In this document: positions 17,603-34,244 of the stretch, piece by piece | Layout: every line of letters begins with the position of its first letter | Position numbering within the stretch: position 1 is the stretch's first letter | Assembly: GCF_003258595.1 (NCBI RefSeq) | Contig: NZ_QHHQ01000002.1 | Span: 1,302,001-1,366,000 of the forward strand | Source of the DNA: Acuticoccus sediminis | Lineage (GTDB): Bacteria > Pseudomonadota > Alphaproteobacteria > Rhizobiales > Amorphaceae | Direction of reading: 5' to 3' | Length of the DNA: 64,000 bases | Program-made: the position numbers and the translations under genes | The notes under the pieces: model-generated | What the model was told of the DNA's origin: nothing | Database searches by the model: none | What the model saw: only the letters and a program-made list of their open reading frames with translations

Positions 17603-17640
17603 TTGTACCTGTACAATAAACGTTGCGTATTGACAACGTT
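17603..17640 (+). promoter_or_regulatory. IclR-type operator/promoter element, copy 1
   Basis: Two inverted repeats are fused here: ATTGTAC-CT-GTACAAT (17602-17617) and AACGTTG-N8-CAACGTT (17619-17640). The second overlaps a TTGACA -35 (17630-17635), with a weak -10 TTCGAT (17653-17658) 17 bases on and the DctQ start at 17766. The 38 bp match the complement of 32973-33010 at 32 positions. Changes in the second palindrome are symmetric between its arms, as expected for a dimer-binding site under selection. Confidence 0.8.
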
Positions 17641-17765
17641 GAGGGGCGATGGTTCGATGCCCCCAACAAGAAAAAGTGGCCCGCCGGGACCCCCGTGCGG
17701 GCGGCATCGGCGCACCCGGAAATCGCACTCGGCGCCGGTGACATGAGGAAGCGCCGGAGAAGGCC

Positions 17766-18290
17766 ATGCCGCGTGCCGAAGCGATGCTGCGCCGCGTCGA
17801 AGACCTGTTGCACGCCCTCGGCTGCACAGCGCTCGTCGTCGTCGCCGTGCTCATCAACGCCGACATCATCTCGCGTGTCGTGGGCCTGCGCCCGCTGGAG
17901 ATGCAGTTCGAGCTGACCGAGCTCTACCTGATGCCGTCCCTGGCGACGCTCTCGCTCGCACGCGTGTTCCGCGACGGCGGGCACCTCGCCCTCGAGGTCG
18001 ACACGCCCTCCCTCCTCGGCCCCCTCTGGCCCGTCGTCAGACGGCTCGTGCTCGCCGCGTCCGCCGCCTTCTTCCTGACGGTCGCCTACGTCTCGGGCCG
18101 GCATGCGGTCGAGGCGTTCGCCAAGGGATCCATCGAGTTCGGCGTCATCGACTGGCCGCTGGGGTGGGCGTACCTGCCGGTCCCCGTCGGCACCGGCCTT
18201 CTCGCCGTCCGGCTCCTCGTGGAGCTCGTAAAACGAGGCGCGCCAAGCGCCCTTGCCACCAACACAGGAGGAGACATCAATGAAATTTAA
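17766..18290 (+). CDS. TRAP transporter small permease (DctQ-type), system 2
   Basis: A 174-residue protein with four hydrophobic helices: a first helix around TALVVVAVLINADIISRVVG, then LYLMPSLATLSLARVFRDGGHLALEV, typical of DctQ. GGAGAAGG precedes the ATG. It is the first gene of a DctQ-DctP-DctM operon, an order that differs from system 1 (P-Q-M) and system 3 (Q-M-P). Its 3' end overlaps the DctP start by 11 bases. Transcription probably begins at the promoter inside the IclR-type element about 100 bases upstream. Confidence 0.88.
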   Translation: MPRAEAMLRRVEDLLHALGCTALVVVAVLINADIISRVVGLRPLEMQFELTELYLMPSLATLSLARVFRDGGHLALEVDTPSLLGPLWPVVRRLVLAASAAFFLTVAYVSGRHAVEAFAKGSIEFGVIDWPLGWAYLPVPVGTGLLAVRLLVELVKRGAPSALATNTGGDINEI

Positions 18291-19299
18291 GGCCACCCTC
18301 GCCGCCGCCGCGACCGCCGCCGTCCTCTCCGCCGGGGCGTTCAGCCTCCCCGCGCAGGCCACCGACCTGCGCCTCGGCGACTTCCAGTCCACCACCCACA
18401 TCGTCTCGGTGAACGGGACGCAGAAGTGGATGAAGGACGTCGAGGCCGCCACCGAAGGCGCCGTGACGTTCACCCACTTCCCGTCCGAGCAGGGCGCCAA
18501 GGCCGACGCGCTGCTGGACGCGGTCGCCAACGGCATCCTCGACGTCGCGCTGATCCAGCCCTTCTACACGTCCGAAAAGCTGCCGCTGTGGTCCATCGTC
18601 GGCCTGCCCGGCTTCTACGACACCGCCGACAGGGGCACCGAGGCGCTGCAGGCGATGATCGACGAGGGCGCCACCCGCGACGAGCTCCTCGAGGCCGGCG
18701 TCGTGCCCATCTTCGCCGTCGCGCTGCCGCCCTACCAGGTGCTCTCCAAGGCCGAGCGGATGGGCGCGCTCGACGCGTGGACCAACAAGAACATCCGCAC
18801 CAGCGGCGCGGCTCAGGCGCTGATCGCCCGCAGCCTCGGCGGCGCCGGCGTGTCGATGCCCGGCCCCGAGGTCTATACCGGAGTGGAGCGCGGCCGCCTC
18901 GACGCGGTCCTCTTCCCGCTCCCCTCCGTGCCCGGCTACAACCTGCAGGAGGTGACGCAGCACATCTCCACGAACGGCTCGTTCGGCGGCTCGCTCCTCA
19001 TGCTCGTCATGAACAAGGACGTCTTCGAGGGCCTGCCGGAGGACGAGCAGAAGGTCCTCCTCGAGCTCGGCGCCGAGACCGCGAGACACGCCGCCAAGGT
19101 GCAGGACGACGCCCAGGCCAAGCTCGCCGACGAATGGGCCGCCGCCGGGATCGACATCTACACCTTCAGCGACGCCGAACTCGACACGCTGAACGAGGCG
19201 ATGGGCGCCGTCCGGCAGGACTGGCTGGACCGGATCGGCGGCCGCAACAAGGACGCCGCGCCGACCATGGAGCGCTACACGAGCCTATCGGCGAACTGA
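18280..19299 (+). CDS. TRAP transporter periplasmic solute receptor (DctP-type), system 2
   Basis: A 339-residue binding protein with a signal peptide (LAAAATAAVLSAGAFSLPAQA, cleaved near residue 27). It has DctP-type features such as GILDVALIQPFYTSEKLPLW, KNIRTSGAAQALIARSLGG and VYTGVERGRLDAVLFPL, but diverges clearly from the receptors of systems 1 and 3. The start at 18280 follows AGGAGG. Sharing a regulatory element with the acyl-CoA ligase at 32.9 kb suggests that its ligand is the carboxylic acid activated by that ligase; this is inference. Confidence 0.9.
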   Translation: MKFKATLAAAATAAVLSAGAFSLPAQATDLRLGDFQSTTHIVSVNGTQKWMKDVEAATEGAVTFTHFPSEQGAKADALLDAVANGILDVALIQPFYTSEKLPLWSIVGLPGFYDTADRGTEALQAMIDEGATRDELLEAGVVPIFAVALPPYQVLSKAERMGALDAWTNKNIRTSGAAQALIARSLGGAGVSMPGPEVYTGVERGRLDAVLFPLPSVPGYNLQEVTQHISTNGSFGGSLLMLVMNKDVFEGLPEDEQKVLLELGAETARHAAKVQDDAQAKLADEWAAAGIDIYTFSDAELDTLNEAMGAVRQDWLDRIGGRNKDAAPTMERYTSLSAN

Positions 19300-19344
19300 G
19301 GCGCGCGATCGTCCATCCTCCTGTTCCGTAGCCCCTGAGCGACG

Positions 19345-20640
19345 ATGCTGTCCCTAGCCATCCTCGTCATCGTCCTCGCCGTCCTGATGCTGGTGCGCAT
19401 GCCCGTGGCGTTCGCCATGGGCATCGCCGGGACGGCGGGACTCGCCATCCAGATCGGCACCCGCCCGGCGCTCGCCGTGCTGGAGCGGGTGTTCATCGAC
19501 ACCACCGCCTCGTTCATCCTGGTGGCGATCCCGCTCTTCATCCTGATGGCCGAGCTCCTGACCGCCGGCCAGGTCACACGCCGCGCCATCCTCGCCTGCC
19601 AGGCCTGGGTCGGCCATGTGCGGGGCGGACTCGCGGTGGCGACCGTCGGCGCCTCGGTGCTGCTCGCGGCGCTGATCGGCTCCAGCACCGCCTCCACGGC
19701 GGCGATGGCGACCTCCGCCTACCCCGAGATGCGCCGCCACAAGTACAACGACCGCCTCGCGACGGCGGTCGTCAGCGTCGGCGGCACGCTGGCGGTGGTG
19801 GTGCCGCCCTCCATCGTCCTCGTCGTCTACGGGGTGCTGACGGAGACCTCCATCGGCAAGCTCTTCATCGCCGGCATCGTGCCGGGGCTGATGACGGCCC
19901 TGGGCATCTCGACCGTCATCAAGATCGTCTCGCACACCACGGACTACGCGCCGCGGGGCGAACCCTTCCGGCTCGGCCACGCGCTGCGCGCGTCGCGGCA
20001 CGTGGTGCCGATGGTGCTCCTCATCGTGGCAGTGATCGGCGTCATCTACGGCGGCATCGCCTCGCCGTCGGAGGCGGCCGCGTTCGGGGTGATGGGGGCG
20101 CTTGTCCTCGGCCTCGCGCAGCGCTCGCTGCGGCTGGCGTCCCTCGCGCCGTCGGTGAGCACGGCGGTGCGGGCGACCGTGATGATCGTTACCATCATCG
20201 CCTGCTCGCACATCTTCGCCAACTACCTGTCCTTCACGCGCGTCACCCAGGATCTCCTGTCGGCCATCGAAGGGAGCGGCCTGCCGGCATACGCCATCCT
20301 GTCGATGATGGTCCTCGTCCTCCTGGTGATGGGCATGTTCATGGACCAGCTGGCGATCCTGTCGCTGGCGATGCCCCTCGCCTTCCCGGCCGCGATGGCG
20401 CTGGACTTCGACCCGGTCTGGTTCGGCATCGTCGTCACCAAGACGGTGGAGATCGGGCTGATCACGCCGCCGCTCGGCCTCAACGCCTACGTGGCGGCGG
20501 GCCAGTCGGGTGTTCGGCTCGGCGAGGTGTTCCGCGGACTGACGCCGTTCATCATCATGGAGCTCGTCGTGCTGACGCTCCTGATCGCCTTCCCGCAGAT
20601 CACGCTATGGCTCCCCGGCCTGATGCTGGGCCGCGGATGA
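19345..20640 (+). CDS. TRAP transporter large permease (DctM-type), system 2
   Basis: A 431-residue multi-helix permease with the DctM hallmarks FILVAIPLFILMAELLTAG, SSTASTAAMATSAYPEM, GGTLAVVVPPSIVLVVYG and VEIGLITPPLGLNAYV. It is 45 bases downstream of DctP with a weak ribosome site. In the usual GSSVATAA motif the Ser-Val-Ala core is replaced by SSTASTAA, a mild divergence. It closes the operon; a strong GC hairpin follows the stop codon directly. Confidence 0.92.
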   Translation: MLSLAILVIVLAVLMLVRMPVAFAMGIAGTAGLAIQIGTRPALAVLERVFIDTTASFILVAIPLFILMAELLTAGQVTRRAILACQAWVGHVRGGLAVATVGASVLLAALIGSSTASTAAMATSAYPEMRRHKYNDRLATAVVSVGGTLAVVVPPSIVLVVYGVLTETSIGKLFIAGIVPGLMTALGISTVIKIVSHTTDYAPRGEPFRLGHALRASRHVVPMVLLIVAVIGVIYGGIASPSEAAAFGVMGALVLGLAQRSLRLASLAPSVSTAVRATVMIVTIIACSHIFANYLSFTRVTQDLLSAIEGSGLPAYAILSMMVLVLLVMGMFMDQLAILSLAMPLAFPAAMALDFDPVWFGIVVTKTVEIGLITPPLGLNAYVAAGQSGVRLGEVFRGLTPFIIMELVVLTLLIAFPQITLWLPGLMLGRG

Positions 20641-20662
20641 CGCGGTCCGGGCCCGGGCCGCG
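20641..20662 (+). terminator. GC hairpin after TRAP system 2
   Basis: CGCGGTCCGGG is followed directly by CCCGGGCCGCG, giving an 11-bp arm with one G-U type mismatch right at the DctM stop. No U-run follows. A second inverted repeat (GCCCGCCC with GGGCGGGC) lies further along in the 155-base gap before the convergent gene. Confidence 0.5.
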
Positions 20663-20795
20663 ACTCACGCGGCGAGAGCCCGGGCGGGAGAGCGGACGCA
20701 CGCCGCCTCCGTCCGGCCCGCCCTCCAGCCCGCCCCTCCCGATCGTGGAACGGGCGGGCGCGGCCTCGCGGTCGTGTGCGGGGCCGTGCAGCGGG

Positions 20796-21785
20796 TCAGG
20801 CGTCGACGAGGGCGCCGGCAGCCGCCATCTGCGCCTCGAGGTCTTCCACGGTGATGGCCCCCGGCTTCAGCCCCTCGCGGGCGAGGCGGGCGGCGAGGTC
20901 GACGAGGAAGGCGTTGGCCGGAGCCTCCATCCCGTTGAGGCGCGCCATGAGCACGATCTCGCCGTTCATGAAGTCCGTCTCGACGGAGCCGGCGCCGCGC
21001 ATGAGGCTCTGCGTGGTGGAGCCGCCGTCGTAGGTCACGCCCTCGATGGGGCTGAACTTCATGAACTTCTTGCGCCGCTCGTCGTCTTCGCCGACGTCCT
21101 GCCAGGCGATTCCGGCGGCCTTCAGCACGGCCTCCGCCTCGGCGCAGACGTGGCTGTAGAGCCGCTCGCACTTCACCCCGCGCCCGAGCGTCGCCTCCAG
21201 GATGTTGTTGAGGTTGACGAACAGCTTGCCGTACTTCGACGGCATCACGTCGTCGTTGACGTCGGTGGCGATGTTGGCCGCGTTGAGGGCCTCGGCCAGC
21301 GCCTCGTCGTGGCGGTTGGAGCCCTTGGGATAGCGGCCGACGTCGAAGATGCCGTGCTTGGGGCCGGAGAAGGCGCAGGCATCGTCCGGATCGGCGATGA
21401 AGGCCGGCATGCGGACGGTGACGCCGTGCACCTCCGGGAAGCGGCGCAGCACGAGGCGCTCGTTGGTGACGCCGTTCTGCAGGCAGAAGATCGGCTGCGC
21501 GGTGACGCCGGCGGCGCGCAGCCGGTCGAGCGCGGCGATGGTGTCCTGGGTCTTCATCGTCAGCAGGATGGCGTCGTCCGGGCCGAACTCGATCTCGGTC
21601 GGGTCGGCGACGCAGGGGAAGTGGACCCGCTTCTCCCACTCGGGCGTGCGGAAGTTCAGCCCGTTCTCCTTGAGGGCCGCGAGACGCTTGCCCCGCGCGA
21701 TGCCCACGACGTCGCGTCCCGCCAGCGTCAGCGCCGCAGCGACCGCGCCGCCGATGGCGCCCACGCCGTAAACGATGATCCGCAT
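20796..21785 (-). CDS. Ketopantoate reductase (ApbA/PanE)-family protein
   Basis: A 329-residue NAD(P)-dependent reductase. The N-terminal Rossmann motif YGVGAIGGAVAAAL is at 5-18; NGVTNERLVL and KYGKLFVNLNNI correspond to the substrate asparagine and catalytic lysine regions of PanE; the C-terminal helical domain follows. Family members reduce 2-oxopantoate or act on other branched 2-hydroxy/2-oxo acids. Lying alone between two TRAP operons, it may be catabolic and not a pantothenate enzyme; this cannot be decided from sequence. The start at 21785 opens exactly on the Rossmann motif. Confidence 0.82.
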   Translation of the reverse strand: MRIIVYGVGAIGGAVAAALTLAGRDVVGIARGKRLAALKENGLNFRTPEWEKRVHFPCVADPTEIEFGPDDAILLTMKTQDTIAALDRLRAAGVTAQPIFCLQNGVTNERLVLRRFPEVHGVTVRMPAFIADPDDACAFSGPKHGIFDVGRYPKGSNRHDEALAEALNAANIATDVNDDVMPSKYGKLFVNLNNILEATLGRGVKCERLYSHVCAEAEAVLKAAGIAWQDVGEDDERRKKFMKFSPIEGVTYDGGSTTQSLMRGAGSVETDFMNGEIVLMARLNGMEAPANAFLVDLAARLAREGLKPGAITVEDLEAQMAAAGALVDA

Positions 21786-22379
21786 GGATTGCTCACCTTT
21801 GTTCCGCCACGACGGGCAGGGTTCGTGTTTCCGGGTCGGAGGGGTCCGCAACGCTCCGGCCGCGCTCCGGCGTCCGGGATGCCCGCACACCCGTCCCACG
21901 CCCGGCGAGGGATGAGACGGCGATACGGAGCACGGGATTGCGGTCCTCGAAGAAGCGGCCATTGCCGCAGCGCCGCCGTCCCCGCCATGCCGGCGGCTCG
22001 GGCGGCGCCACGGACAGGCTACCGGGATCGCCGCCGGGATCAAGTGACTTCGAGGCCGGAACGCGTCGTCATCGCGATCGTCAATGGCAGACGTGAACCA
22101 ATCGCCACAGGCGCGGGCTCAAGCATGCGAACCATCACTTTTGCCGATGGATGTCATCAGAAGAAGATGGCTTTTGCTCGTGCGGCCCACCCGTCACAAT
22201 CGCTGCAATGGACTGCGATCGCCCGGCAATTCGGGGTCGCCGCCCACGGGAGACGCGCTCTCCGGTCGACAGACAACAATTACCGCCGCCCCATGCGGAC
22301 GGACAAGTCGATCGGCGCGCAGTTCAAGGACATGACCGGCCGGCCGAGTGGCCGGGATCGGATGGGCAGAGGCTGAAAG
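21786..22379. other. Intergenic region upstream of TRAP system 3
   Basis: About 590 bases separate the divergent ketopantoate-reductase-like gene and DctQ of system 3. I see no family-like coding sequence. One short open frame at 22293-22376 (27 codons) ends three bases before the TTG start of DctQ and could be a leader, but has no ribosome site worth noting. No clear operator repeat was found. Confidence 0.6.
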
Positions 22380-23000
22380 TTGGCTCTGGGATCTCGTAAC
22401 GACCAGCACGACCGGGTCCTCGCACCCGAACCGTCGGACGCGATGCGCCTCGCCGAGGGCGCGGACCGCGTCCTGCGCACACTGGACACCGCCGCGATGG
22501 CGGTCTCGGCGCTCTCCATCGTCGCGATGACGGCGCTCGTCAGCCTCGAGGTGATCTTGCGCGCGACGCTCGGCGCCTCGACGCTGATCGCCTCGGAGTT
22601 CGCGGGCTACCTCCTCGTCAGCACCGTCTACCTCGGCCTCGCCTGGACGTTCCGCTGCGGCGGCTTCATCCGCGTGGAGGTGGTCCACGGCGCGCTGAAG
22701 GGGACGCTCCTGCGCCTCGTCAACGTGGTCATCGCGGCGATCGCGACGGCGACGCTGCTCGTCTACTCCTACTATCTCGTCCGCTTCGTCTCGCAGAACA
22801 TGGCGACGGGCGTGACGTCGATCTACGTCTCGCGCACGCCGCTGTGGATCCCGCAGCTCGCGATGCCGCTCGGCGCCGGGCTCCTCACCCTGACCATGGC
22901 CGCCCACACGGTGCGTTCGGCCGCCCTCCTCCTCGGCTTCGCCGCGGCGGAGGACAAGGCCGCGCACTTCGCGGCCGAGCAGGCGGCGGGCCCGCTATGA
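22380..23000 (+). CDS. TRAP transporter small permease (DctQ-type), system 3
   Basis: A roughly 206-residue four-helix membrane protein (first helix about SALSIVAMTALVSLEVILRA; later FAGYLLVSTVYLGLAWTFR and GGFIRVEVV). Two starts are possible: TTG at 22380, which has AGAGG seven bases ahead, and ATG at 22443 (185 residues), which fits typical DctQ length but lacks a visible ribosome site. The stop overlaps the DctM start by four bases (22997-23000). First gene of a plus-strand operon running through the amidohydrolase. Confidence 0.82.
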   Translation: MALGSRNDQHDRVLAPEPSDAMRLAEGADRVLRTLDTAAMAVSALSIVAMTALVSLEVILRATLGASTLIASEFAGYLLVSTVYLGLAWTFRCGGFIRVEVVHGALKGTLLRLVNVVIAAIATATLLVYSYYLVRFVSQNMATGVTSIYVSRTPLWIPQLAMPLGAGLLTLTMAAHTVRSAALLLGFAAAEDKAAHFAAEQAAGPL

Positions 23001-24298
23001 CCTGGGTCGGCTTCTCCGTCTTCGCCATCGTCACGCTCTTCGCGCTGCTGGCGTCGGGCGTCTGGATCGCCATCGCGCTGATGACGACGGGCATGACCGG
23101 GCTCTACCTGGAAGGCGGCACGCGCACCTTCCTGGCGCTCGGCTCGATCAGCTGGAACTCCATCAACAGCTTCACCCTCAGCCCCGTCCCGATGTTCATC
23201 GTGATGGGCGCCGTCATCCTGCGGTGCGGCGTCGCCGAGCGGTTCTACGCCGCCCTCGCCACCTGGATGCGCGTCCTGCCGGGCGGGCTCCTCCAGTCCA
23301 ACATCGTCGCCTGCAGCGTGTTCGCCGCCGCCTCCGGGTCGAGCGTCGCGACCGCCGGGACCATCGGCACGGTGACGATCCCGGAGCTGAAGCGGCGCGG
23401 TTACGATCCCGGCATGATCTTCGGCTCGCTGGCGGCGGGCGGGACGCTCGGCATCCTCATCCCGCCCAGCATCGTGATGATCATCTACGCCTCGCTCGTG
23501 GACGTGTCGGTCGCCAAGCTCTTCATGGCGGGCGTCGTTCCGGGCATCCTCCTGGCGCTCGTTTTCATGGGCTACATCGCCGTGCGCTGCACCGCCCGGC
23601 GCGAACTGGCGCCGGTGGAGGAGACGACGGAACGGCCGAGCCTGCGCTCGCTCCTCGACGTGCTGCCGCTCGTCTCGCTGATCCTCGCCGTCATGGGCTC
23701 GATCTACCTCGGCTGGGCGACGGCGACGGAGGCGGCGGCCATCGGCGTGCTGGCCAGCCTCGTCATCGCGGCGCTCTACGGCGGGCTCAGCTGGGCCAAC
23801 CTGAAGCAGGCGCACATGGAGGCGGTGCGCACCACCTGCATGGTGCTCGTCATCGTGGTGGCGGCGCAGATCTTCTCGCACTGCCTCGTCTACTCCGGCG
23901 TCAGCCGCTCCCTGACCGAGTACGTGATCTCGCTGCAGCTGCCGACCTTCGTCCTCTTCCTGGCGATCGTCGCGCTCTACATCCTGCTCGGCTGCCTGAT
24001 CGACGGGGCGTCGATGATGCTGCTGACGCTCCCGGTCCTCTTCCCGATCGTGGTGGGTGCCGGGTTCGACCTCGTCTGGTTCGGCGTGGTGGTGGTGATC
24101 CTGATCGAGATCGGGATGATCACGCCGCCGATCGGCCTCAACCTCTTCGTGCTCCACGGCATGAGCGGCGGCACGCCCTACGCGGCCGTCGCCCGCGGGG
24201 CGCTTCCCTACGTCGTGCTGATGTTCGCCTTCCTCATGCTGCTGTGGCTGGTGCCGGACCTCGCGCTCTGGCTCCCCGCGCATGTGGGCGGCCGATGA
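22997..24298 (+). CDS. TRAP transporter large permease (DctM-type), system 3
   Basis: A 433-residue permease with MFIVMGAVILRCGVAERFY, ASGSSVATAGTIGTV, GGTLGILIPPSIVMIIYASL and IEIGMITPPIGLNLFVL, all DctM signatures. It resembles the system 1 DctM (same GSSVATA and GILIPPS cores) more than system 2, in keeping with both systems being paired with NtaA-type monooxygenases. It is coupled to DctQ by ATGA, and a receptor gene follows after 31 bases. Confidence 0.93.
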   Translation: MTWVGFSVFAIVTLFALLASGVWIAIALMTTGMTGLYLEGGTRTFLALGSISWNSINSFTLSPVPMFIVMGAVILRCGVAERFYAALATWMRVLPGGLLQSNIVACSVFAAASGSSVATAGTIGTVTIPELKRRGYDPGMIFGSLAAGGTLGILIPPSIVMIIYASLVDVSVAKLFMAGVVPGILLALVFMGYIAVRCTARRELAPVEETTERPSLRSLLDVLPLVSLILAVMGSIYLGWATATEAAAIGVLASLVIAALYGGLSWANLKQAHMEAVRTTCMVLVIVVAAQIFSHCLVYSGVSRSLTEYVISLQLPTFVLFLAIVALYILLGCLIDGASMMLLTLPVLFPIVVGAGFDLVWFGVVVVILIEIGMITPPIGLNLFVLHGMSGGTPYAAVARGALPYVVLMFAFLMLLWLVPDLALWLPAHVGGR

Positions 24299-24329
24299 AA
24301 GACCAATAAAAACATAAGGGAGGACAACT

Positions 24330-25346: not shown

Positions 25347-25360
25347 CCGCTCTTCCGGCT

Positions 25361-25401
25361 CCGGCCGCCCGCGCGGCCGGGGTCGTCTCCCGACCCCTTT
25401 T
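25361..25401 (+). terminator. Intra-operon hairpins after DctP of system 3
   Basis: CCGGCCGC-CCGC-GCGGCCGG (25361-25380) is followed by GGGTCG-N5-CGACCC and then CTTTT (25380-25401). The second stem with its short T-run looks like a rho-independent terminator or attenuator that would reduce transcription past the abundant receptor mRNA into the enzyme genes. Confidence 0.55.
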
Positions 25402-25416
25402 CCGGACATCAACGCC

Positions 25417-26649
25417 ATGAAACTCGAACAAGCCGTCTGTGTGGAAGACATGGCACGCCTCGCCCGGCAGGCGCTGCCGCGCATCGCGTACGACTTCATC
25501 GACGGCGGCGTCGAGGGCGAGGTCGGCCTCGCCCGAAACCGCTCCGAGTTCGACCGCTACAAGCTCCTGCCGCGCTACCTCGTCGACGTCGCCAGCCGGC
25601 CGCAGACGGTGACGCTCTTCGGGCGCGAGTACACCGCCCCGTTCGGCGTCTCGCCGATGGGCCTCGCCGGTTTCTTCCGCAAGGGCGCCGACCTCATGAT
25701 CGCGCGCGCCGCGGCGAAGGCGGGCGTTCCCTACATCATGTCGAGCGCGAGCTGCGATTCCATCGAGGCGGCGGTGAAGGAAGCGCCCGGCACGACGTGG
25801 TTCCAGATCTACGGGACGCGCAATCCCGACATCACGATGGACCTCGTGCGACGCGCCACGGCGCTCGACGTCCCGGTCCTCGTGATGACCATCGACACCC
25901 CCGTCATCGGCAAGCGCGAACGCAACATGCGCAACGGCTTCCGCCGCCCCATGAAGATGACGCCGGACGTCATCCTGCAGGGCCTCTCGCGCCCGGCGTG
26001 GACCCTCGCCTACCTGCGCGAGGGCGGCATCCCGATGATGCAGAACTGGCAGCCCTACGCCGCCGCCGGCGCCAGCGCCGACGACGTCGCCGACCTCTAC
26101 GGCACCGAGACACCCGCGCCCGGCCAGACCTGGGAGATCCTGGAGGCGGTGCGCGCCGCATGGCCGGGCCCGCTCGCCGTGAAGGGCGTCCTCCACCCGG
26201 ACGACGCGCGGCGGGCGCAGGCCATCGGTGCCGACGGCCTCGTCGTCTCCAACCATGGCGGCCGCCAGCTCGACTCGGCGCCGGCGCCGATCGAGATGCT
26301 GCCGGCGATCGTCGAGGCGACCGGCGGGCGAATGGAGATCCTCGTCGACAGCGGCGTCCGGCGCGGCTCCGACATCGGCAAGCTCCTGTGCCTCGGCGCC
26401 AGGGCGGCGCTCGTCGGGCGGCCGGCGATGTTCGGCGCGGCGGCGGCGGGCGAGCCGGGCGTCGCCCACGTCTTCAGGATTCTCCGCCAGGAGATCGACC
26501 TTCTCATGGGGCAGATGGGGTGGCCGGACCTCTCCGCCGCGCGCCCCGAATGCCTGATCGACACCCGCTCACCCGACCAGCCGATGCGCCGCGCGGCGAC
26601 GGCCCCCGAGCCCGCGCCCGGCCACCTCAAGAAAGTAGCCATGCCGTGA
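25417..26649 (+). CDS. FMN-dependent 2-hydroxy acid oxidase/dehydrogenase (LldD/mandelate dehydrogenase family)
   Basis: A 410-residue TIM-barrel flavoenzyme oxidising an (S)-2-hydroxy acid to the 2-oxo acid. The start of the fold (PRIAYDFIDGGVEGE) contains the Tyr near FMN, MSSASCDSIE and WFQIYG line the flavin, and VSNHGGRQLDSAPA holds the catalytic His (about residue 280) and substrate Arg. The ending LVDSGVRRGSDIGKLL and ALVGRPAMFG are canonical. It overlaps the next gene (GTGA). The neighbours suggest that a hydroxy acid imported by TRAP system 3, or released by the monooxygenase, is its substrate. Confidence 0.9.
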   Translation: MKLEQAVCVEDMARLARQALPRIAYDFIDGGVEGEVGLARNRSEFDRYKLLPRYLVDVASRPQTVTLFGREYTAPFGVSPMGLAGFFRKGADLMIARAAAKAGVPYIMSSASCDSIEAAVKEAPGTTWFQIYGTRNPDITMDLVRRATALDVPVLVMTIDTPVIGKRERNMRNGFRRPMKMTPDVILQGLSRPAWTLAYLREGGIPMMQNWQPYAAAGASADDVADLYGTETPAPGQTWEILEAVRAAWPGPLAVKGVLHPDDARRAQAIGADGLVVSNHGGRQLDSAPAPIEMLPAIVEATGGRMEILVDSGVRRGSDIGKLLCLGARAALVGRPAMFGAAAAGEPGVAHVFRILRQEIDLLMGQMGWPDLSAARPECLIDTRSPDQPMRRAATAPEPAPGHLKKVAMP

Positions 26650-27953
26650 CGAAACAAATGCATCTGATCGGGTTCTACATGCACAGCCCGATCAACCACT
26701 CCATCATGAGCTGGACCGATCCGGAGGACGACCGCGTCGACGGGTTGGCGACCTTCGAGCACTGGAAGCGGCTCGCCCGGACGCTGGAGCGCGGCTGCTT
26801 CGACGGCGCCTTCTTCGCCGACACGCCCGGCGGCTTCGACCGCTACCGCGACAGCCTCGACGACTACGTGCGCTACGGCGTCACCTGGCCGTGCTACGAC
26901 CCGATGGCCCCGGTGAGCGTGATGCTCGCGGAGACCGAGCACCTCGGCCTCGCCGTCACCGCATCGACCTCCGGCAGCCACCCGTACACGACGGTCCGGC
27001 GGATCTCGACGCTCGACTACATGAGCGGCGGGCGGATGGGCTGGAACATCGTCTCGGGACACCTCAGGGGCGAGCACCGCGCGCTCGGCATCCCCCAGCT
27101 CGAGCACGACGCCCGCTACGACCACGCCGACGAGTACATGGAGGTCTGCTACCGCCTCTGGAACGGCGTCGACCAGGCGGCCGTCCTCGCCGACCGGGAC
27201 GGCGGCATCTACGCCGACCCCGCCCATGTCGACGTCGTCGACTTCGACGGCGAGCATTTCCGCTGCCACGCGGTTCCGCCGACGCTCCCCTCGCGCCAGG
27301 GTCGCCCGGTGCTCTTCCAGGCAGGCACCTCCGGCCGGGGCCAGCAGTTCGCGATGAAGCACGCCGACGTCGTCTTCTCCATCCAGCCGCGCGAGGAGGG
27401 CATGGTGAAGTTCGTGAAGTCCTTCAACGAGGCGGCGGCCGCGGCGGGCCGGCGCGACGCGCCCGGCGTCACCTTCGGCGTCCAGTGCGTCCTCGGCGGC
27501 ACCGAGGCCGAGGCGCGCGCGCGGCAGGTGGAGATTGCCGAGCGCGTGCCTCTCGACGCCGCGCTCTGCCGCATGTCCGGCACGCTCGGCATCGACTTCA
27601 GCACCCTCGACATGGACACCCCGCTCGCCGAGCAGACCACCGACGCCTCGCGCGGCATGCTGATGGCGCTCGCCTCGATGGCGGGCGACCGCGAGGCGAC
27701 GATCCGCGACGCCGCCCGCATCTTCGGCGCCTCGACCGGGATGGCGCAGATCGTCGGCACGCCCGAGCAGGTGGCCGAGCGGCTGGAGACCATCTGGCGC
27801 GCGAGCGGCTGCCACGGCTTCAACGTGACGCCGACGACGAACCTCAGGAGCGTGGAGGACTTCGTCGACCAGGTCGTGCCGATCCTCCAGCGGCGCGGCG
27901 TGTTCCGGACGGAATACGACGGCCACACCTTCAAAGACACCCTCCTCAACTGA
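26646..27953 (+). CDS. NtaA/SnaA/DszA-family FMNH2-dependent monooxygenase, copy 2
   Basis: A 435-residue LLM monooxygenase clearly paralogous to the one at 16002-17312: shared FDGAFFADTPGG, RRISTLDYMSGGRMGWNIVS, PPTLPSRQGRPVLFQAGTSG and LGIDFSTLDMDTP. GTG at 26646 overlaps the previous stop and gives the same N-terminal length as copy 1; ATG at 26658 is the alternative. It needs FMNH2, but no reductase gene lies in this operon, so it probably borrows a reductase encoded elsewhere. The substrate is unknown; family members attack C-N or C-S bonds. Confidence 0.9.
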   Translation: MTKQMHLIGFYMHSPINHSIMSWTDPEDDRVDGLATFEHWKRLARTLERGCFDGAFFADTPGGFDRYRDSLDDYVRYGVTWPCYDPMAPVSVMLAETEHLGLAVTASTSGSHPYTTVRRISTLDYMSGGRMGWNIVSGHLRGEHRALGIPQLEHDARYDHADEYMEVCYRLWNGVDQAAVLADRDGGIYADPAHVDVVDFDGEHFRCHAVPPTLPSRQGRPVLFQAGTSGRGQQFAMKHADVVFSIQPREEGMVKFVKSFNEAAAAAGRRDAPGVTFGVQCVLGGTEAEARARQVEIAERVPLDAALCRMSGTLGIDFSTLDMDTPLAEQTTDASRGMLMALASMAGDREATIRDAARIFGASTGMAQIVGTPEQVAERLETIWRASGCHGFNVTPTTNLRSVEDFVDQVVPILQRRGVFRTEYDGHTFKDTLLN

Positions 27954-27974
27954 CGAGAACCGACGAGAACCGCC

Positions 27975-28829
27975 ATGGCCGCGCCAGATACCACCGACGC
28001 CCTCTCCCGCCCGCGCATCGCGGTGCCGGCGGGGGCGTGCGACACGCACATGCACATCTACGACAACCGCTACCCGACGTCGGAGAAGGCCTACCTCTTC
28101 CCGCCCGACCGCACGGTGGCCGACTACCGCAAGGTGCAGGCACGCCTCGGCCTCGAGCGGACGGTGATCGTGCAGCCCGTGACCTACGGCTTCGACAATT
28201 CCTGCACGATGGACGCCGTCGCCGACCTCGGCGACACGGCACGGGCGGTGGTGACGGTGCCGGTCGACATTCCGGAGGCCGAGCTCGACGCGCTGTGGCG
28301 GAAGGGTGCGCGCGGCTTCCGTTTCCACCAGATGCGGGGCGGCATGCTCTCCTGGGACGAGCTGAAGACGATGGCCGGCCGCATCGCCGGATCGCCGTGG
28401 CACGTCCAGGTCCAGCTCGACGGACTGGAGCTGCCGCAATACGAGGCGCTCCTCGCCGATCTCCCGACGACGGTCGTCCTCGACCACATGGGCCGCTTCT
28501 CCGAGCCGGTGGGCCTCGACCACGAGGCGGTGCAGGCGCTGCTGCGCCTCGTGCGGCGGCCGAACGTCTACGTGAAGATGTCGGGCGTCTACTACATCTC
28601 CGCGACCGGCGAGCCCGACTATGCCGACATGCGCCCGCTCGCGGCGGCGCTCGCCGGGGCGGCCGAGGGCCGCGTGCTGTGGGGCTCGGACTGGCCGCAC
28701 CCGACGAAGTCCGACGACGAGATGCCGGACGACGCCGCGCTCCTCGACTTCCTCGCCGCGGCGGCCCCGGACGAGGCGGCGCGCAAGACCATCCTGGTGG
28801 ACACGCCGGCGAAACTCTACGGCTTCTGA
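27975..28829 (+). CDS. Amidohydrolase-superfamily lactonase (LigI / galactarolactone isomerase-like)
   Basis: A 284-residue TIM-barrel hydrolase of the COG3618 group. The metal/substrate motif ACDTHMHIYD is at 22-30, FRFHQMRGG lies mid-barrel, VVLDHMGRF carries a conserved His, and the family-typical GSDWPHP ends strand eight. Characterised relatives hydrolyse 2-pyrone-4,6-dicarboxylate or isomerise galactarolactone. It is 21 bases after the monooxygenase gene and probably opens a lactone product. The exact substrate cannot be told from sequence. Confidence 0.83.
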   Translation: MAAPDTTDALSRPRIAVPAGACDTHMHIYDNRYPTSEKAYLFPPDRTVADYRKVQARLGLERTVIVQPVTYGFDNSCTMDAVADLGDTARAVVTVPVDIPEAELDALWRKGARGFRFHQMRGGMLSWDELKTMAGRIAGSPWHVQVQLDGLELPQYEALLADLPTTVVLDHMGRFSEPVGLDHEAVQALLRLVRRPNVYVKMSGVYYISATGEPDYADMRPLAAALAGAAEGRVLWGSDWPHPTKSDDEMPDDAALLDFLAAAAPDEAARKTILVDTPAKLYGF

Positions 28830-28917
28830 CGCGGCGGCCGCTTGCCACCCGCGGGCGGGACCGCGAGAATTGCCCCCGCGGTGACGTGCCGGAAGAGCGC
28901 GGCCGCGGGAGGACGTC

Positions 28918-29874
28918 ATGCTGGGCCGGATCTCGCTCGATCAGCTTCAGATCCTGATCACCGTCGTCGAGACGGGAAGCTTCTCGGCAGGCGCGCGCAA
29001 GCTGAACCGCGCCCAGTCGGCGGTCAGCCAGTCGGTTCAGGGCCTCGAGGACGCGCTGGGGCTGCAGCTCTTCGACCGGTCCAAGAAGCTGCCGCGCCTC
29101 ACCGACGCCGGGGTCGCCATCCTGGCGGACGCTAGGCGGGTGGTCTCCAGCGTCGAGGCGTTGCAGGCGCGGGCGACGAGCATCTCGTCGGAGGCCGAAC
29201 CGGAGATCTCCATCGCCATCGAGCAGGTGTTCCCGGCGGAGGCGCTCATCGCCTCGCTGAGCGAGTTCCAGCGGCGCTATCCGTCGGTCTCGGTGACGCT
29301 CCTCGCCGAGGGTCTCGGCGCGCCGGAGCAGTCGCTCAAGGACGACATCGCCAAGCTCGCGATCTATTCCCCGCCCCATGACGGGCAGCCCGGGATCGAG
29401 TGCGAGTTCTTCGGGGACGTGCCGATCTCGGTGGTGGCGGCGGCGAGCCACCCGCTGGCGCGGATCGAGGGGCCGATCAGCCAGGCCGAGCTGGACGAGC
29501 ACGTGCAGCTTCTCCTGACGGACCGCACGCGCAAGTATCGCGGCGTCGTCATCGGCTCACGGCACTGGCGGTTCATCGACCAGCTCAACCGGCTCGACTT
29601 CGTGGTCAACGGCCTCGGCTGGTGCACGATGCCGACGCACCTCGCGCGCGAGCACCTCGACAACGGCACGCTGGTGGAGCTCGACCTCGCGATCCACCGG
29701 GGGCGGATGCTGAAGTTCCCGCTCTATGCCGCCTACAAGCGCGACCACTGGCCGGGCCCGGCGGCACGCTGGCTCCTGACGGACCTGCGCGAACGCTTCG
29801 AGGAGTGGGTGGCCCGCACGTCGGCCGGCTCGGCCGAGACGCAGGGCATACAGGTCCGCGTCTCGCTCGCCTGA
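28918..29874 (+). CDS. LysR family transcriptional regulator, adjoining TRAP system 3
   Basis: A 318-residue LysR regulator. The N-terminal winged helix (about 4-63) has LDQLQILITVVETGSFSAGA and LNRAQSAVSQSVQGLEDALG; the effector domain follows (about 92-300). ATG 28918 follows GGAGG. It lies 88 bases after the amidohydrolase on the same strand, not divergent from its likely target, so it may be co-transcribed or have its own promoter. Control of the TRAP 3/monooxygenase operon is the simplest guess. Confidence 0.88.
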   Translation: MLGRISLDQLQILITVVETGSFSAGARKLNRAQSAVSQSVQGLEDALGLQLFDRSKKLPRLTDAGVAILADARRVVSSVEALQARATSISSEAEPEISIAIEQVFPAEALIASLSEFQRRYPSVSVTLLAEGLGAPEQSLKDDIAKLAIYSPPHDGQPGIECEFFGDVPISVVAAASHPLARIEGPISQAELDEHVQLLLTDRTRKYRGVVIGSRHWRFIDQLNRLDFVVNGLGWCTMPTHLAREHLDNGTLVELDLAIHRGRMLKFPLYAAYKRDHWPGPAARWLLTDLRERFEEWVARTSAGSAETQGIQVRVSLA

Positions 29875-29942
29875 GGCGCGGTCCCGCCCGCCTCAACGGC
29901 ACGGCGTCCCCGCCCCCGCGCCACGGCAAGGCGGTCCCTCAG

Positions 29943-30093
29943 CCTGTTCCTCGGAGCCAGCCGTCGCTGAAGCCCGAAAAGAGACGGAGGCCGGTTCCGT
30001 CAAGGGCCGGCTTGCCGGGCGGAGCGAACCCTTGACGGAACCGGTCTCCGGCTCCGGGCTTCTCTTCAGCGACGGGTGGCTTCGAGGAACAGG
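29943..30093. repeat. Long imperfect palindrome between convergent genes
   Basis: The arm 29943-30006 is matched by the reverse complement of 30029-30093. The outer 29 or so bases (starting CCTGTTCCTCG, ending GTCGCTGAAG) and inner 20 or so (CCGGTTCCGTCAAGGG core) pair almost perfectly; the middle differs. The loop is 22 bases. A further partial copy (CTGTTCCTTGGTGAAGCCCG) occurs at 30102-30121. It sits between the LysR and hydratase stops. Size exceeds a simple terminator; a mobile palindromic repeat is possible. Confidence 0.7.
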
Positions 30094-30148
30094 CGCCCGC
30101 CCCTGTTCCTTGGTGAAGCCCGAGCCCCCGCGGCCATTCGCGCTCGCC

Positions 30149-31285
30149 TCAGCGCTTCGGCAGCGCGACGATGGCCGATCCGATGGCGGACGTCTCGTCG
30201 TCCTGGTTTGAGGCGCGCTGGCTGATCTCGACGAGGTAGCGGCCGTTCTCCTCGTACTTGCGTGCGACCTCGCCGTGGATGAGGACGATGTCGCCCTCCG
30301 GGTTGTGGCGGCGCACCTGGCACTTGGCGCGGGCGAGGAAGCCGTCGTCGCCCATCCAGTTGGTGACGTGGTGGGTGAGCCAGGAGCAGCGCTCCGGGCC
30401 GTAGTCGTAGGCGCCGGGAGCGCCGACCGCGAGGGCGAAGTCCTCCTCCCAGTGGACGCGCTCGGGGCAGTCGGGGATGCCGAAGCGGTTCTTGATGCCG
30501 AGCCCCGGGTGGTTCGCCTGCTGGCGCCAGGCGAGCTTGTTGGCGCGGATGTAGAGGCCCCCCCAGCCCTGCGCGTAGGCAATGAAGCCGGTGACGGTCA
30601 TCGGCCCCTTGACCATGGTCGGCAGCGGCTCGCCCTCGACGACGTCGTCCCAGTAGCGGGTCTCGGCGCCGCGGATCGTCTCCTCCTCGTAGAGCCTGTA
30701 GTAGGCGGCGAGCTCCTCCTCGGTATAGACGCGGGCCTCGCGGGCGCGGACCGCCGAGTACTTGGTCCCCTTCTCGCGGGCGTAGTCGCGGTCGGTGCGG
30801 AAGCACCAGCTGTCGGCCTCGGCGAGGAGCGTGCCCTCCGGGTCGTAGAAGTTGACGTGGTAGATCTGCTGGACGGCACGGCCGGCGAAGCGGGTGTCGT
30901 GCTCGACGAGGTCCTTGAGCCAGGCCTCGGTGCGGATCTCGGTGTTGCGGCGGATGGGCGCGTGCCAGGTCCAGTCGGCCCCGGACCACATGGCGTGAAC
31001 GCCGGCGAGACCGCCGACGTAGCCGGAGATGATGCGGCTCGTCGCGAAGAGGAAGCTCGGCAGGGCGATGACGTCGCCGTACCTCGTGGTGCGGGCATAG
31101 GCGGGGTCGCACCAGAGCGGGTTGTCGTCGCCGATGCCGTGCGCGTAGTGGCGGATGTTGTCTCGCGTCGCCTCGTAGCACCAGGGCTCGACCGTCTTCT
31201 CGATCTTGACGCCGATCCGTGCGCGCAGGTCGTCCATTCCCTCCGGGGTGATCTTGGGGAAACGGCTATGGACGGTCTCGTTCAT
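30149..31285 (-). CDS. MaoC-like/FAS1-like acyl-CoA dehydratase (hydratase)
   Basis: A 378-residue double-hotdog protein. The N-terminal half (IRHYAHGIGDDNPLWCDPAYA, ALPSFLFATSR) resembles FAS1/MaoC-like dehydratase domains; the C-terminal half (SWLTHHVTNWMGDDGFLARA, GEVARKYEENGRYLVEI) completes the second hotdog. MaoC-type enzymes hydrate enoyl-CoAs. The ATG at 31285 has AGGAGGAA ahead. It is 29 bases downstream of the acyl-CoA ligase, so the pair likely activates and then hydrates an unsaturated acid. The mesaconyl/itaconyl type is one possibility; no substrate-specific residue can be called. Confidence 0.8.
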   Translation of the reverse strand: MNETVHSRFPKITPEGMDDLRARIGVKIEKTVEPWCYEATRDNIRHYAHGIGDDNPLWCDPAYARTTRYGDVIALPSFLFATSRIISGYVGGLAGVHAMWSGADWTWHAPIRRNTEIRTEAWLKDLVEHDTRFAGRAVQQIYHVNFYDPEGTLLAEADSWCFRTDRDYAREKGTKYSAVRAREARVYTEEELAAYYRLYEEETIRGAETRYWDDVVEGEPLPTMVKGPMTVTGFIAYAQGWGGLYIRANKLAWRQQANHPGLGIKNRFGIPDCPERVHWEEDFALAVGAPGAYDYGPERCSWLTHHVTNWMGDDGFLARAKCQVRRHNPEGDIVLIHGEVARKYEENGRYLVEISQRASNQDDETSAIGSAIVALPKR

Positions 31286-31314
31286 CGGGCATTCCTCCTG
31301 GCGGTGGCGGGCGG

Positions 31315-32889
31315 TCAGGCCGCGCCGACGGCATGTTGTTGTTCGTTGTCGCGCAGGACCTTGCGGTTGACCTTGCCGGCGGGGGTCTTGGGCAGGGCGT
31401 CGACGAAGGCGACCTGGCGCGGATATTCGTGGCGGCTGAGGTTGGTGCGAACGAGGTCCTGGATCTCGCCGGCGAGCGCCTCGGTGGTCTCCCCCCTCGC
31501 GACGACGAAGGCCTTGACCACCTGGCCGCGCACCGCGTCGGGAACGCCGATGGCGGCGGCCTCCATGACGCGGGGATGTTTCAGGATCGCGTCCTCGATC
31601 TCGACGGCGCTCATGGTCCACCCGGCGGAGATGATGACGTCGTCGGCGCGCCCGGCGTGGTAGAAATAGCCGTCGGCGTCGACGCGGCCGAGGTCCTTGG
31701 TGGGGAACCACGTCCCCCGCCGCTCGACCATCAGCTCACCGATCTCGCCTGGGGGTGCGGGCGTTCCGTCCGGCCGGTGGACCTCGACGGTCACGCCGGG
31801 GACGGGCTTGCCGAGCGAGCCGGGGCGCACCGCGAAGTCGGCGGCGCCCGGGTAGTTGGCGAGGATCACGCCGATCTCGGTCGTGCCGTACATGCTGCAG
31901 ACGGGGGTGCCGAAGAGCGCCTCGCAGAACTCGGCCGTCTCGCTGTCGAGCGGCTCGCCGGTAAAGGAGAGCTTCTCGATCGCGAGGCGGAAGTCCCCGG
32001 CGCGGCCGGAGTTCCTCATCATCCGGTAGTGCGTTGCCGCGGCGGAGAGGTTGGTGATCGAAAAGTCCTGGAGCGCCTGGAGCAGACGGACGGGGTCGAA
32101 CCTGCCGCTGAAGGTGCCGGTCGAGACGCCGAGCGCGAGGGGCGCCAGGGTGCCGTGCCACAGGCCGTGCCCCCAGGCCGGCGAGGACGGGCAGAAGAAG
32201 CGGTCGCCCGGCCGGACCCCGGTGGCGTAGAGCGCGGCCACCATCAGCGTGACGATGGAGCGGTGCGAGTGGCGCACAGCCGCAGGCAGGAGCCGCGTCG
32301 TGCCGGAGGTGTACTGCAGCACGGCGAGGTCGTCGCCCGCGGTGTCGCACGCGAAGGACCGCGGCAGGTCCGACAGGCCGTCCAGGAACGCGCGGTCGCA
32401 GACCACCACTTCGGTCCCGCCGGCAGCCTCCGCGTCGGCGCGCTTCTCCGCGTTGGTAAAGAGGAGCCGGGGCGCGCAGTCGTCGACGCGCAGGCGGATG
32501 CCGTCGGGGCCGAAGAGGGTGAACATCGGCACCGCCACCGCGCCCGCCTTCATCGCGCCGAAGAGGGCGACGTAGAACGGCATCGACGGCTCCAGCATGA
32601 CCGCGACGCGGTCGCCCTTCGCGATCCCGCGCGCCCTGAGGGCGTGGGCGAACTGGGCGGAGCGGGCGGAGAGTTCGGCGAACGTGACGATCTCGTCGCG
32701 CCCGTCGGCGTGGGCGATGCGCAGGGCGACGCCGTCACCGGCCCGGCCGTCGTCCGCCGCGTGCCGGTCGACGCATTCGTGGGCGATGTTGATCGCCTCG
32801 CGCGTCCCGTCGAACAGCGCCCAGAGGGCGGCGTTCGAGAAGTGGGCCCGGGCGTCCCCGTAGGCGGTGAACTCAGTCAAAGACGGCAC
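31315..32889 (-). CDS. AMP-dependent acyl-CoA ligase with atypical P-loop
   Basis: A 524-residue adenylate-forming ligase that converts a carboxylic acid, ATP and CoA to acyl-CoA. MYGTTEIG (A5) and the C-terminal PKTPAGKVNRK with the catalytic lysine are intact. The A3 P-loop is unusual: YTSGTTRLLPAAVRHSH (193-209) has Arg, Leu-Pro and Ala where family members have Gly and a Pro-Lys-Gly core. The start is GTG at 32889 behind GGGAGG; the nearby ATG at 32896 is out of frame. It is divergent from the IclR gene across a strong operator. Confidence 0.87.
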   Translation of the reverse strand: MPSLTEFTAYGDARAHFSNAALWALFDGTREAINIAHECVDRHAADDGRAGDGVALRIAHADGRDEIVTFAELSARSAQFAHALRARGIAKGDRVAVMLEPSMPFYVALFGAMKAGAVAVPMFTLFGPDGIRLRVDDCAPRLLFTNAEKRADAEAAGGTEVVVCDRAFLDGLSDLPRSFACDTAGDDLAVLQYTSGTTRLLPAAVRHSHRSIVTLMVAALYATGVRPGDRFFCPSSPAWGHGLWHGTLAPLALGVSTGTFSGRFDPVRLLQALQDFSITNLSAAATHYRMMRNSGRAGDFRLAIEKLSFTGEPLDSETAEFCEALFGTPVCSMYGTTEIGVILANYPGAADFAVRPGSLGKPVPGVTVEVHRPDGTPAPPGEIGELMVERRGTWFPTKDLGRVDADGYFYHAGRADDVIISAGWTMSAVEIEDAILKHPRVMEAAAIGVPDAVRGQVVKAFVVARGETTEALAGEIQDLVRTNLSRHEYPRQVAFVDALPKTPAGKVNRKVLRDNEQQHAVGAA

Positions 32890-32954
32890 GCGCCATGTCC
32901 TCCCGCGTTGTCACCGGCTCGCCTCTCGCGAGCGTCTCCTGTCGTTGTGTGGGA

Positions 32955-32983
32955 GAATTAAAAACGGAACCAATCATTGTCAA
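32955..32983 (-). promoter_or_regulatory. Sigma-70 type promoter of the acyl-CoA ligase operon
   Basis: Reading the minus strand, TTGACA (complement of 32978-32983) is followed by exactly 17 bases and TAATTC (complement of 32955-32960). The expected start of transcription lies about 55-60 bases before the GTG of the ligase. The -35 is embedded in the IclR-type palindrome, so binding there would directly compete with or position RNA polymerase. Confidence 0.65.
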
Positions 32984-33010
32984 TACACAATGATTATTGT
33001 ACAGATACAA
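32973..33010 (-). promoter_or_regulatory. IclR-type operator/promoter element, copy 2
   Basis: On the plus strand this shows TCATTGT-N6-ACAATGA (32974-32993) and an imperfect ATTGTACAGATACAA next to it. In reverse complement it aligns with 17603-17640 at 32 of 38 positions without gaps. It sits between the ligase start (32889, minus) and the IclR start (33034, plus), so it can control both directions. Confidence 0.8.
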
Positions 33011-33033
33011 CGAATAGCCGTGACGAGGGTGCT

Positions 33034-33825: not shown

Positions 33826-34244
33826 TGGACCGGCCGGTGCCGCCCGAGGGGTGGAAGGCGATGGAGTTTCCCGGCCTGATCGGGCGGCTGGGGCCGCTGC
33901 TGTCGCAGCGCAACGGCGACGGGTGGCGCTACGGCCTCGTGGTCGAGCCGATGCACACCAACGTCCTCGGCATCGTCCACGGCGGCACGCTGATGACGCT
34001 CCTCGACCAGACGGCCACGCTGGAGGCTGTGTGGCGCACCAGGGAACGGTCGATCGTGACGATCTCGATGACGACGCGTTTCCTCGGCGCCGGCCGCCTC
34101 GGCGACCTCCTCGTGGGCGAGGGACGGCTCACGAAGGTCACGCGCTCGCTGATCTTCCTGGAGGCGGCGATTTCGGCCGGCGGCGAGCCGGTCGCGGACG
34201 CCTCCGTCATCATGAAACGAACAGGAACCGGGGGGAAGGAATGA
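33825..34244 (+). CDS. PaaI-type hotdog thioesterase
   Basis: A 139-residue hotdog-fold thioesterase. VLGIVHGGTLMTLLDQTATL is the PaaI/4HBT signature, with the Gly-Gly helix cap and Asp (LLDQ) positioned as in acyl-CoA thioesterases, and SMTTRFLGAGRLGDLLVGEG follows. The ATG shares a base with the IclR stop (TGATG), and the stop overlaps the CoA-transferase start (ATGA), so the three are one translational unit. It may release CoA from dead-end thioesters of the ligase pathway. Confidence 0.85.
   Translation: MDRPVPPEGWKAMEFPGLIGRLGPLLSQRNGDGWRYGLVVEPMHTNVLGIVHGGTLMTLLDQTATLEAVWRTRERSIVTISMTTRFLGAGRLGDLLVGEGRLTKVTRSLIFLEAAISAGGEPVADASVIMKRTGTGGKE

Follow-up and report, generated by a model that had tools for sequence, protein, structure and literature searches.

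Two matching predicted operators probably place a TRAP transporter operon and a divergent IclR/acyl-CoA ligase locus under one regulator in Acuticoccus sediminis

Two 38-bp elements, one ahead of a TRAP transporter operon and the other between an acyl-CoA ligase gene and a divergent IclR-family regulator gene, stand in inverted orientation with 15.4 kb between them in the window, the 64,000-nucleotide stretch of the Acuticoccus sediminis genome analysed here. Judging from the sequence comparisons below, both are very probably operators of a single regulon bound by the IclR protein encoded at 33034-33825, through which uptake and activating enzymes would be switched together. The motif is conserved and closely tied to its gene set, and the TRAP genes are members of this module. 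The features concerned are the following.

16002..17312, minus strand: NtaA/DmoA-type luciferase-like monooxygenase, divergent from the TRAP operon
17603..17636, plus strand: operator 1 (TRAP copy), predicted from the motif; box A 17603-17606 (TTGT), box B 17613-17616 (ACAA), box D 17623-17626 (TTGC, weak), box C 17633-17636 (ACAA)
17766..18290, plus strand: DctQ, TRAP small permease, system 2
18280..19299, plus strand: DctP, TRAP solute-binding protein, system 2
19345..20640, plus strand: DctM, TRAP large permease, system 2
30149..31285, minus strand: MaoC/FAS1_DH-type hot-dog (de)hydratase, same strand as the ligase and 3' of it
31315..32889, minus strand: AMP-forming acyl-CoA ligase, inferred GTG start, altered P-loop YTSGTTR
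32977..33010, minus strand: operator 2 (ligase/iclR copy), predicted; all four boxes, TTGT-N6-ACAA twice
33034..33825, plus strand: IclR-family regulator, inferred TTG start, HTH_IclR and IclR_C domains, presumed binder of both operators
33825..34244, plus strand: PaaI-like hot-dog thioesterase, its ATG overlapping the iclR stop codon
34241..35467, plus strand: CaiB-type (family III) CoA-transferase, its ATG overlapping the PaaI stop codon

Aligned without gaps, the plus-strand sequence 17603-17640 and 32973-33010 in reverse complement share 32 of 38 positions, the same value that an earlier note on this DNA had given. Both contain TGTACAATAA and GTATTGACAA, and both have the same orientation towards the gene downstream (DctQ or the ligase), as had also been claimed. 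The proposal that the copies had drifted symmetrically stands for four of the six mismatches: 38-mer positions 18/37 and 20/35 mirror each other around the centre of the second palindrome, and in both pairs one change compensates for the other; at least two such pairs are expected by chance with P = 0.002 when five random substitutions fall in the 22 bp of that palindrome. It fails for positions 6 and 24, which are unpaired. Raw identities of 31-33/38 are also reached by other ungapped pairs in the window, some of them in TRAP permease coding stretches, and the weight therefore rests on an independent motif test.

Of the 26 relative ligase loci in other genomes, 14 went into a matrix that contains neither window site. 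This matrix ranks the two window sites first (36.1 bits at 17603; 37.8 bits at 32977, minus strand), and the best score across 60 simulated order-2 Markov windows is at most 1.5 bits. All remaining positive scores in the window are shifted or opposite-strand reads of the two sites. Omitted from the matrix were L053 (19-bp spacing) and L023 (changed palindrome), both by hand, L022, L064, L069, L070 and L071, which lay under the threshold of 20 of 29, and L058, L061, L063, L066 and L068, which have no site. A 14.7-bit matrix match at L053 looks like chance, and L025 has a weak match of 15.1 bits near MaoC. A 33-bp IUPAC pattern matched the window twice against 0.00 expected from 100 shuffles, a partly circular test because the pattern was built from both window sites. 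Across the whole 7.76-Mb genome, a 40-bp version gave two matches at up to three mismatches and its reversed control none; these are the only two sites of the kind found, and both lie in the window.

The conserved unit comprises three boxes, a TTGT-N6-ACAA palindrome and an outer half-site 19-20 bp further on. Operator 2, whose two palindrome centres are 20 bp apart, lies 87 bp from the ligase start and 23 bp from the iclR start, and box C of operator 1 ends 129 bp ahead of the DctQ start. The search of related genomes that the earlier note had proposed found the motif conserved beyond the window copies, with the three-box pattern 5' of the ligase homologue at 20 of 27 loci (26 from relatives plus that of the window), so that the predicted sites would class as three-box sites, i.e. 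a palindrome with an external direct half-site, conserved in orthologues. The spacing is 19 bp in four of these 20 loci. Two full palindromes proved not to be the general form: 16 of the 20 loci keep only the outer half of the second palindrome, and its inner half-site (TTGT or TTGC) occurs in the window, L069, L070 and L071. The third box contains TTGACA in 18 of the 20 loci (exceptions L064 and L065). This hexamer, previously read as a -35 element, is indeed present, but no consensus sigma-70 promoter was found in either intergenic region, and conservation may thus concern the half-site as such. A search of 17300-33300 at the Rfam gathering score returned no RNA family, and the lone weak terminator-like match at 17691-17678 (minus strand) is within chance.

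The seven ligase loci without the three-box pattern are L022 and L023, whose sites are changed, L058 and L061, whose sites are degenerate, and L063, L066 and L068, which also have no IclR gene in the stretch. In 648 kb searched on both strands, the pattern matched 31 times, counting one G453 site twice where stretches overlap; matches away from ligase promoters were window site 1 and five in a cluster of genome G013. The five G013 sites lie in one 17-kb stretch, with none elsewhere in that genome at up to three mismatches, and precede the ligase, MaoC, a dehydrogenase operon, a monooxygenase and an ABC operon. A match at 272144 in genome G179 (three mismatches) looks like chance. Among 385 genomes of the class, the strict pattern (up to two mismatches) was found in five, all of them among the 14 with the ligase, and its reversed control in none; nine of the 14 miss the strict pattern, five of which have a site with other spacing or letters.

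Beyond the 38 bp, the printed flanks of the two window copies show no clear similarity, pointing to selection confined to the site. This bears on the possibility that site 1 is the decaying remnant of a promoter duplicated when the DNA was rearranged, control of the TRAP genes having been lost. Site 1 does score slightly under site 2, its fourth box reads TTGC and its promoter is not recognisable; its three conserved boxes are nevertheless complete and symmetry is retained where the two copies differ, and together with the flanks this makes decay very unlikely.

The regulator itself belongs to the IclR family (HTH_IclR 47.0 bits, cut-off 22; IclR_C 63.7 bits, cut-off 24). An orthologue lies in the fetched stretch at 19 of the 20 pattern-bearing ligase loci; at L070 the site is present and the fetched stretch holds no IclR gene, and in Comamonas (L024) the site stands at the ligase, ~6 kb from iclR. 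Because the operator accompanies the IclR/ligase pair across genera, the earlier inference that the IclR protein controls both operons is probably right. The recognition-helix region reads PSTCLHI or PSTALHI where the canonical site occurs, and two Sphingobium orthologues combine PSTCLYV with a changed palindrome, a co-variation of protein and site that amounts to two related loci; at L061 and L054 the helix is canonical, yet no site was found. The helix comparison excludes L010. Orthologues were detected in 10 of 397 genomes of the order and in none of the nine other genomes of the family.

Another regulator could in principle use these operators, with iclR merely a neighbour, since LysR (28918) and GntR (8395) genes lie nearby. 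We regard this as improbable to a high degree, given the 19 loci at which IclR and the pattern coincide and the conservation of the recognition helix with the site; moreover, no match covering half or more of the window LysR protein was retained in 29 stretches, and IclR-family sites of like build appear in the portion of PMC8222616 consulted here.

Membership of the TRAP genes in this predicted IclR regulon is clearest in relatives. The window operon encodes PF03480, PF04290 and PF06808 together, as a DctPQM-type system does. Seven of the 29 stretches mapped, from seven relatives, hold a single block, CaiB-PaaI-IclR / ligase-MaoC-DctQ-DctP-DctM, whose DctM proteins are 69-74% identical to DctM of window system 2 and 33-37% identical to that of the neighbouring system 1. 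A marine Pseudosulfitobacter strain (L021) is one relative with the contiguous module. TRAP genes directly follow MaoC in seven of the nine relatives found to carry them, and a DctP orthologue lies within 5 kb of a ligase homologue in all eight sampled relatives having DctP. DctP orthologues occur in seven of 397 genomes of the order (the window genome counted), all within the 10 with an IclR orthologue, and in three of 385 genomes of the class sample, all ligase-positive. The earlier suggestion that the transporter serves the ligase pathway is thus probably correct, given the same TRAP genes in a block behind ligase-MaoC in seven relatives. The window TRAP operon stands apart from the rest of the module in inverted orientation and has an operator copy of its own. 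No operator was found at G577 or at the second cluster of G453, though TRAP genes lie close to a ligase homologue there, and TRAP co-control is thus not universal. Operator 1 also sits 290 bp from the start of the NtaA/DmoA-type monooxygenase gene, so that its co-control by this operator is possible but unsupported.

Near-identical inverted copies bracketing 15.4 kb, of a length (38 bp) known for transposon ends, could suggest the terminal inverted repeats of a mobile element bearing catabolic genes, a reading we rejected as scarcely credible because target duplication is absent (left flank CCGGCAATAA, right flank CGAATAGCCG), the scanned proteins between the copies are of transport, enzyme and regulator families with no transposase, and in most relatives the operator is present once, at the ligase promoter, and lacks a partner.

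The proposed regulon would work as follows. Site 2, between the divergent operons, would control ligase-MaoC and iclR-PaaI-CaiB, including iclR itself, and site 1 would put the DctQPM operon under the same regulator. The IclR protein probably binds as a dimer of dimers, with the first dimer on the strong TTGT-N6-ACAA palindrome and the second anchored two helical turns further on by the outer half-site, and here also by a weak fourth half-site. Its effector may be the carboxylate taken up or the CoA derivative of that carboxylate. Which way control runs is guesswork: we modestly prefer activation of the ligase and TRAP genes, with autorepression of iclR, to simple repression. A rearrangement may have severed the TRAP genes from MaoC here, co-regulation being preserved by the second operator copy.

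Clues to the substrate are few. The ligase has the AMP-binding and C-terminal domains of ANL (AMP-forming) ligases, and PKTP(A/S)GK is present in all 27 homologues; the PKTPxGK motif carries the A10 lysine of these enzymes. The standard ANL P-loop reads TSG(S/T)(T/A) followed by GxPKG, whereas all 27 homologues have YTSGTTR without GxPKG; in the solved relatives 5u2a and 9g79 the aligned segments read TSGTAG-LPKGV and TSGSTG-TPKGV, respectively. The best solved and NCBIfam relatives of the ligase are acetate and other acyl-CoA ligases, the best 25 of 106 matches all falling below cut-off. For MaoC, two weak relatives of solved structure were found, and its three NCBIfam matches lie far under their cut-offs; the solved proteins closest to DctP are TRAP binding proteins of varied kinds. 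The gene neighbourhoods scanned in relatives suggest no shared pathway beyond ligase and MaoC.

We lean slightly towards the broader view that this is an undescribed carboxylate IclR regulon with an altered-P-loop ligase subfamily, in which a severed transporter operon is kept in step by a symmetry-preserving second operator. It looks like a clear case of an operator gained after rearrangement and, if true, would exemplify rewiring in which DNA order is altered and co-regulation kept. One of the three TRAP systems in the window is tied to specific enzymes and a regulator from sequence alone, which narrows the substrate search: a single compound should be both ligand of DctP and substrate of the ligase and, in itself or as a product, should act on IclR.

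Our search of open-licence PMC text found no paper on an IclR-controlled ligase-MaoC-TRAP module. The window protein falls short of the PcaR/PcaU/PobR subfamily (TIGR02431, 79.8 bits against a cut-off of 284.75) and of its best-scoring named model, BhcR (NF045644, 84.6 bits against 350). By eye, the sites fit neither motif group 1 nor 2 (GKTYCRYW3-4RYGRAMC and TGRAACAN1-2TGTTYCA) as given in the part of PMC8222616 used here. The same part describes IclR regulogs with DctPQM, three-box sites and tandem sites, so that the "new uptake-activation module" of the earlier note is not new as a kind, although the link it drew between IclR, ligase and TRAP is probably right; the orthologous group of this IclR protein may already be in the supplementary tables of that paper.

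The three-box sites covered there include the operators of PcaU, PobR and HmgR, with which the sites here share a palindrome plus external direct half-site and the placing of catabolic genes under an IclR-family protein. They differ from those of PcaU (TTTGTTCGATWATCGMACAMA) and PobR (TTGTCCGATSATCGGACAR) in box sequence and spacing, being TTGT-N6-ACAA. Tandem palindromes with centres 18-22 nt apart are recorded in that portion of PMC8222616 for 94 orthologous IclR-family groups; the window palindrome centres, 20 bp apart, resemble these, as for a tetramer on one DNA face, whereas 16 of the 20 site-bearing ligase loci retain just an outer half of the second palindrome. Within what this part of PMC8222616 covers, the predicted regulon is a further case of a described IclR arrangement.

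The two 38-mers that the earlier note had placed at 17603-17640 and 32973-33010 were confirmed at those positions, with 32/38 identical bases and the same orientation, towards DctQ and the ligase, respectively. Because other pairs in the window reach similar values at the 32/38 level, raw identity is not unique within it and an independent motif test was required. The features concerned are:

17603-17636 (+), operator 1, before DctQ of TRAP system 2
17766-20640 (+), DctQPM, the TRAP system 2 operon
30149-31285 (-), MaoC, downstream of the ligase
31315-32889 (-), AMP-forming acyl-CoA ligase
32977-33010 (-), operator 2, between the ligase and iclR
33034-33825 (+), IclR protein

Using the IclR protein and the ligase, we located 27 ligase loci, comprising the window and 26 from relatives (two of the 27 share one genome, G453). 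TTGT-N6-ACAA, followed by ACAA 15 or 16 bases on, lies upstream of the ligase in 20/27. A scoring matrix built from 14 relative sites, with the window sites excluded, gave its top scores across the window at 32977 (-) (37.8 bits) and 17603 (+) (36.1 bits). The remaining positive scores were shifted or opposite-strand reads of those two sites only, and the maximum on 60 simulated windows was 1.5 bits. A ligase-promoter motif from elsewhere thus singles out the TRAP promoter here. Throughout the 7.76-Mb genome, a pattern drawn from both sites matched those two places and no third (≤3 mismatches), and a broader pattern returned the same two sites.

The usual site consists of 10-bp boxes: an inverted pair, ATTGTMTATAKACAAT, and a third box, TATTGACAAT, oriented as the second and 20 bp on (19 bp in loci L053, L069, L070 and L071). 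Each window site adds a fourth, weaker box and is also readable as a pair of TTGT-N6-ACAA-like palindromes centred 20 bp from one another; this box reads TTGT or TTGC in 4/20 site-bearing ligase loci (the window, L069, L070 and L071). The longer arms proposed earlier (AACG...CGTT, ATCA...TGAT) were seen in the window only, by eye; their two mirror-compensated pairs are improbable by chance (P = 0.002, simple model). TTGACA in the third box may be a -35 hexamer and occurs in 18/20 loci, although the window yielded no consensus promoter.

CaiB-PaaI-IclR diverging from ligase-MaoC-DctQ-DctP-DctM was the gene order in 7 of 29 mapped stretches, a set in which one further stretch comes from the window's own genome and two from G453 overlap each other. 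A DctP orthologue occurs in 7/397 genomes of the order (window genome counted), all seven among the 10/397 with an IclR orthologue. The chance of this overlap is 4e-13 with genomes taken as independent and 2e-6 by genus (4/4 within 7/141), both figures being weakened by shared ancestry and by the inclusion of the query genome. In the class sample, 3/385 genomes have a DctP orthologue; apart from the window genome there are two, and in each of these it has a ligase homologue less than or equal to 5 kb away. The order and class searches scored only 3 to 6 candidates per genome and may miss orthologues. Inverting ~17.6-30.1 kb of the window would place DctQPM right behind MaoC, matching seven relatives, and we infer from gene order that the TRAP operon was displaced by rearrangement. 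The steps cannot be dated because an IclR orthologue (E 1e-20 or better) is absent from all nine other family members searched.

Several observations count against shared control. At the TRAP genes of genome G577, and at those in the second cluster of G453, the operator was not found. Three ligase loci have neither an IclR gene in view nor a site, and L070 has a site with no IclR gene in view. The strict pattern was missed by 9/14 ligase-positive class genomes, five of which have a site with other spacing or letters. No site was found at L061 and L054 despite a canonical recognition helix. In Sphingobium, the palindrome upstream of the ligase is changed to ATGTTCNATATATNGAACAT in L022 and decayed in L023, together with an IclR recognition helix PSTCLYV (His-to-Tyr); this fits protein/site co-variation, with one lineage as its basis.

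In genome G013, five operator sites lie within 17 kb and none elsewhere (≤3 mismatches):

Locus L056, 553-17754, operator stretch, five or more copies before different catabolic and transport operons
Site before the ligase
Site before MaoC with an acetyl-CoA hydrolase-type enzyme
Site before a 3-hydroxyisobutyrate-dehydrogenase-like/gluconolactonase/aldehyde-dehydrogenase operon
Site before a luciferase-like monooxygenase, overlapped by the start called for that gene
Site before an ABC/monooxygenase/flavin reductase operon

Given that overlap, the monooxygenase's true start is probably further in. Two more three-box matches precede a branched-chain-type ABC binding protein and the same monooxygenase. 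MaoC is detached here with its own operator, as is the window's TRAP operon, and the cluster is useful for tracing the pathway.

The P-loop YTSGTTR is present in 27/27 ligase homologues (31315-32889 and 26 others), mostly as YTSGTTRxLPxAV. Unlike the solved relatives 5u2a (TSGTAG-LPKGV) and 9g79 (TSGSTG-TPKGV), the family has no lysine and one extra residue there; judged by sequence, it is an unusual, uniform ANL subfamily. Window genes outside earlier scans were confirmed by Pfam. An NtaA/DmoA-type monooxygenase (16002-17312) diverges from the TRAP operon, with operator 1 in between, 290 bp from the monooxygenase start. Within 9000-29900, three TRAP systems (of the third, DctQ and DctP confirmed) lie close to one another and to an amidohydrolase, an FMN-dependent dehydrogenase, two flavin reductase domains and a pair of luciferase-like monooxygenases. 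The 7.76-Mb genome compares with 4.4-5.6 Mb in seven others of the genus searched.

Taken from sequence, the IclR protein probably grips all three boxes of each promoter, and a carboxylate brought into the cell, or the corresponding CoA ester, would probably alter this grip, such that transporter, ligase and hydratase are made together. PcaU and PobR are activators, and we lean weakly towards activation for this protein as well. It fell under the cut-off for each of the nine NCBIfam families matched.

PMC8222616 reports that PcaU, PobR and HmgR have three-box sites, that 94 orthologous groups have tandem sites spaced by 18-22 nt, and that some IclR regulogs contain DctPQM. The window site is of the same kind as the sites in that paper and, by eye, fits neither of its two consensus groups. 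The window operator and its putative regulon belong to a kind already described for the IclR family.
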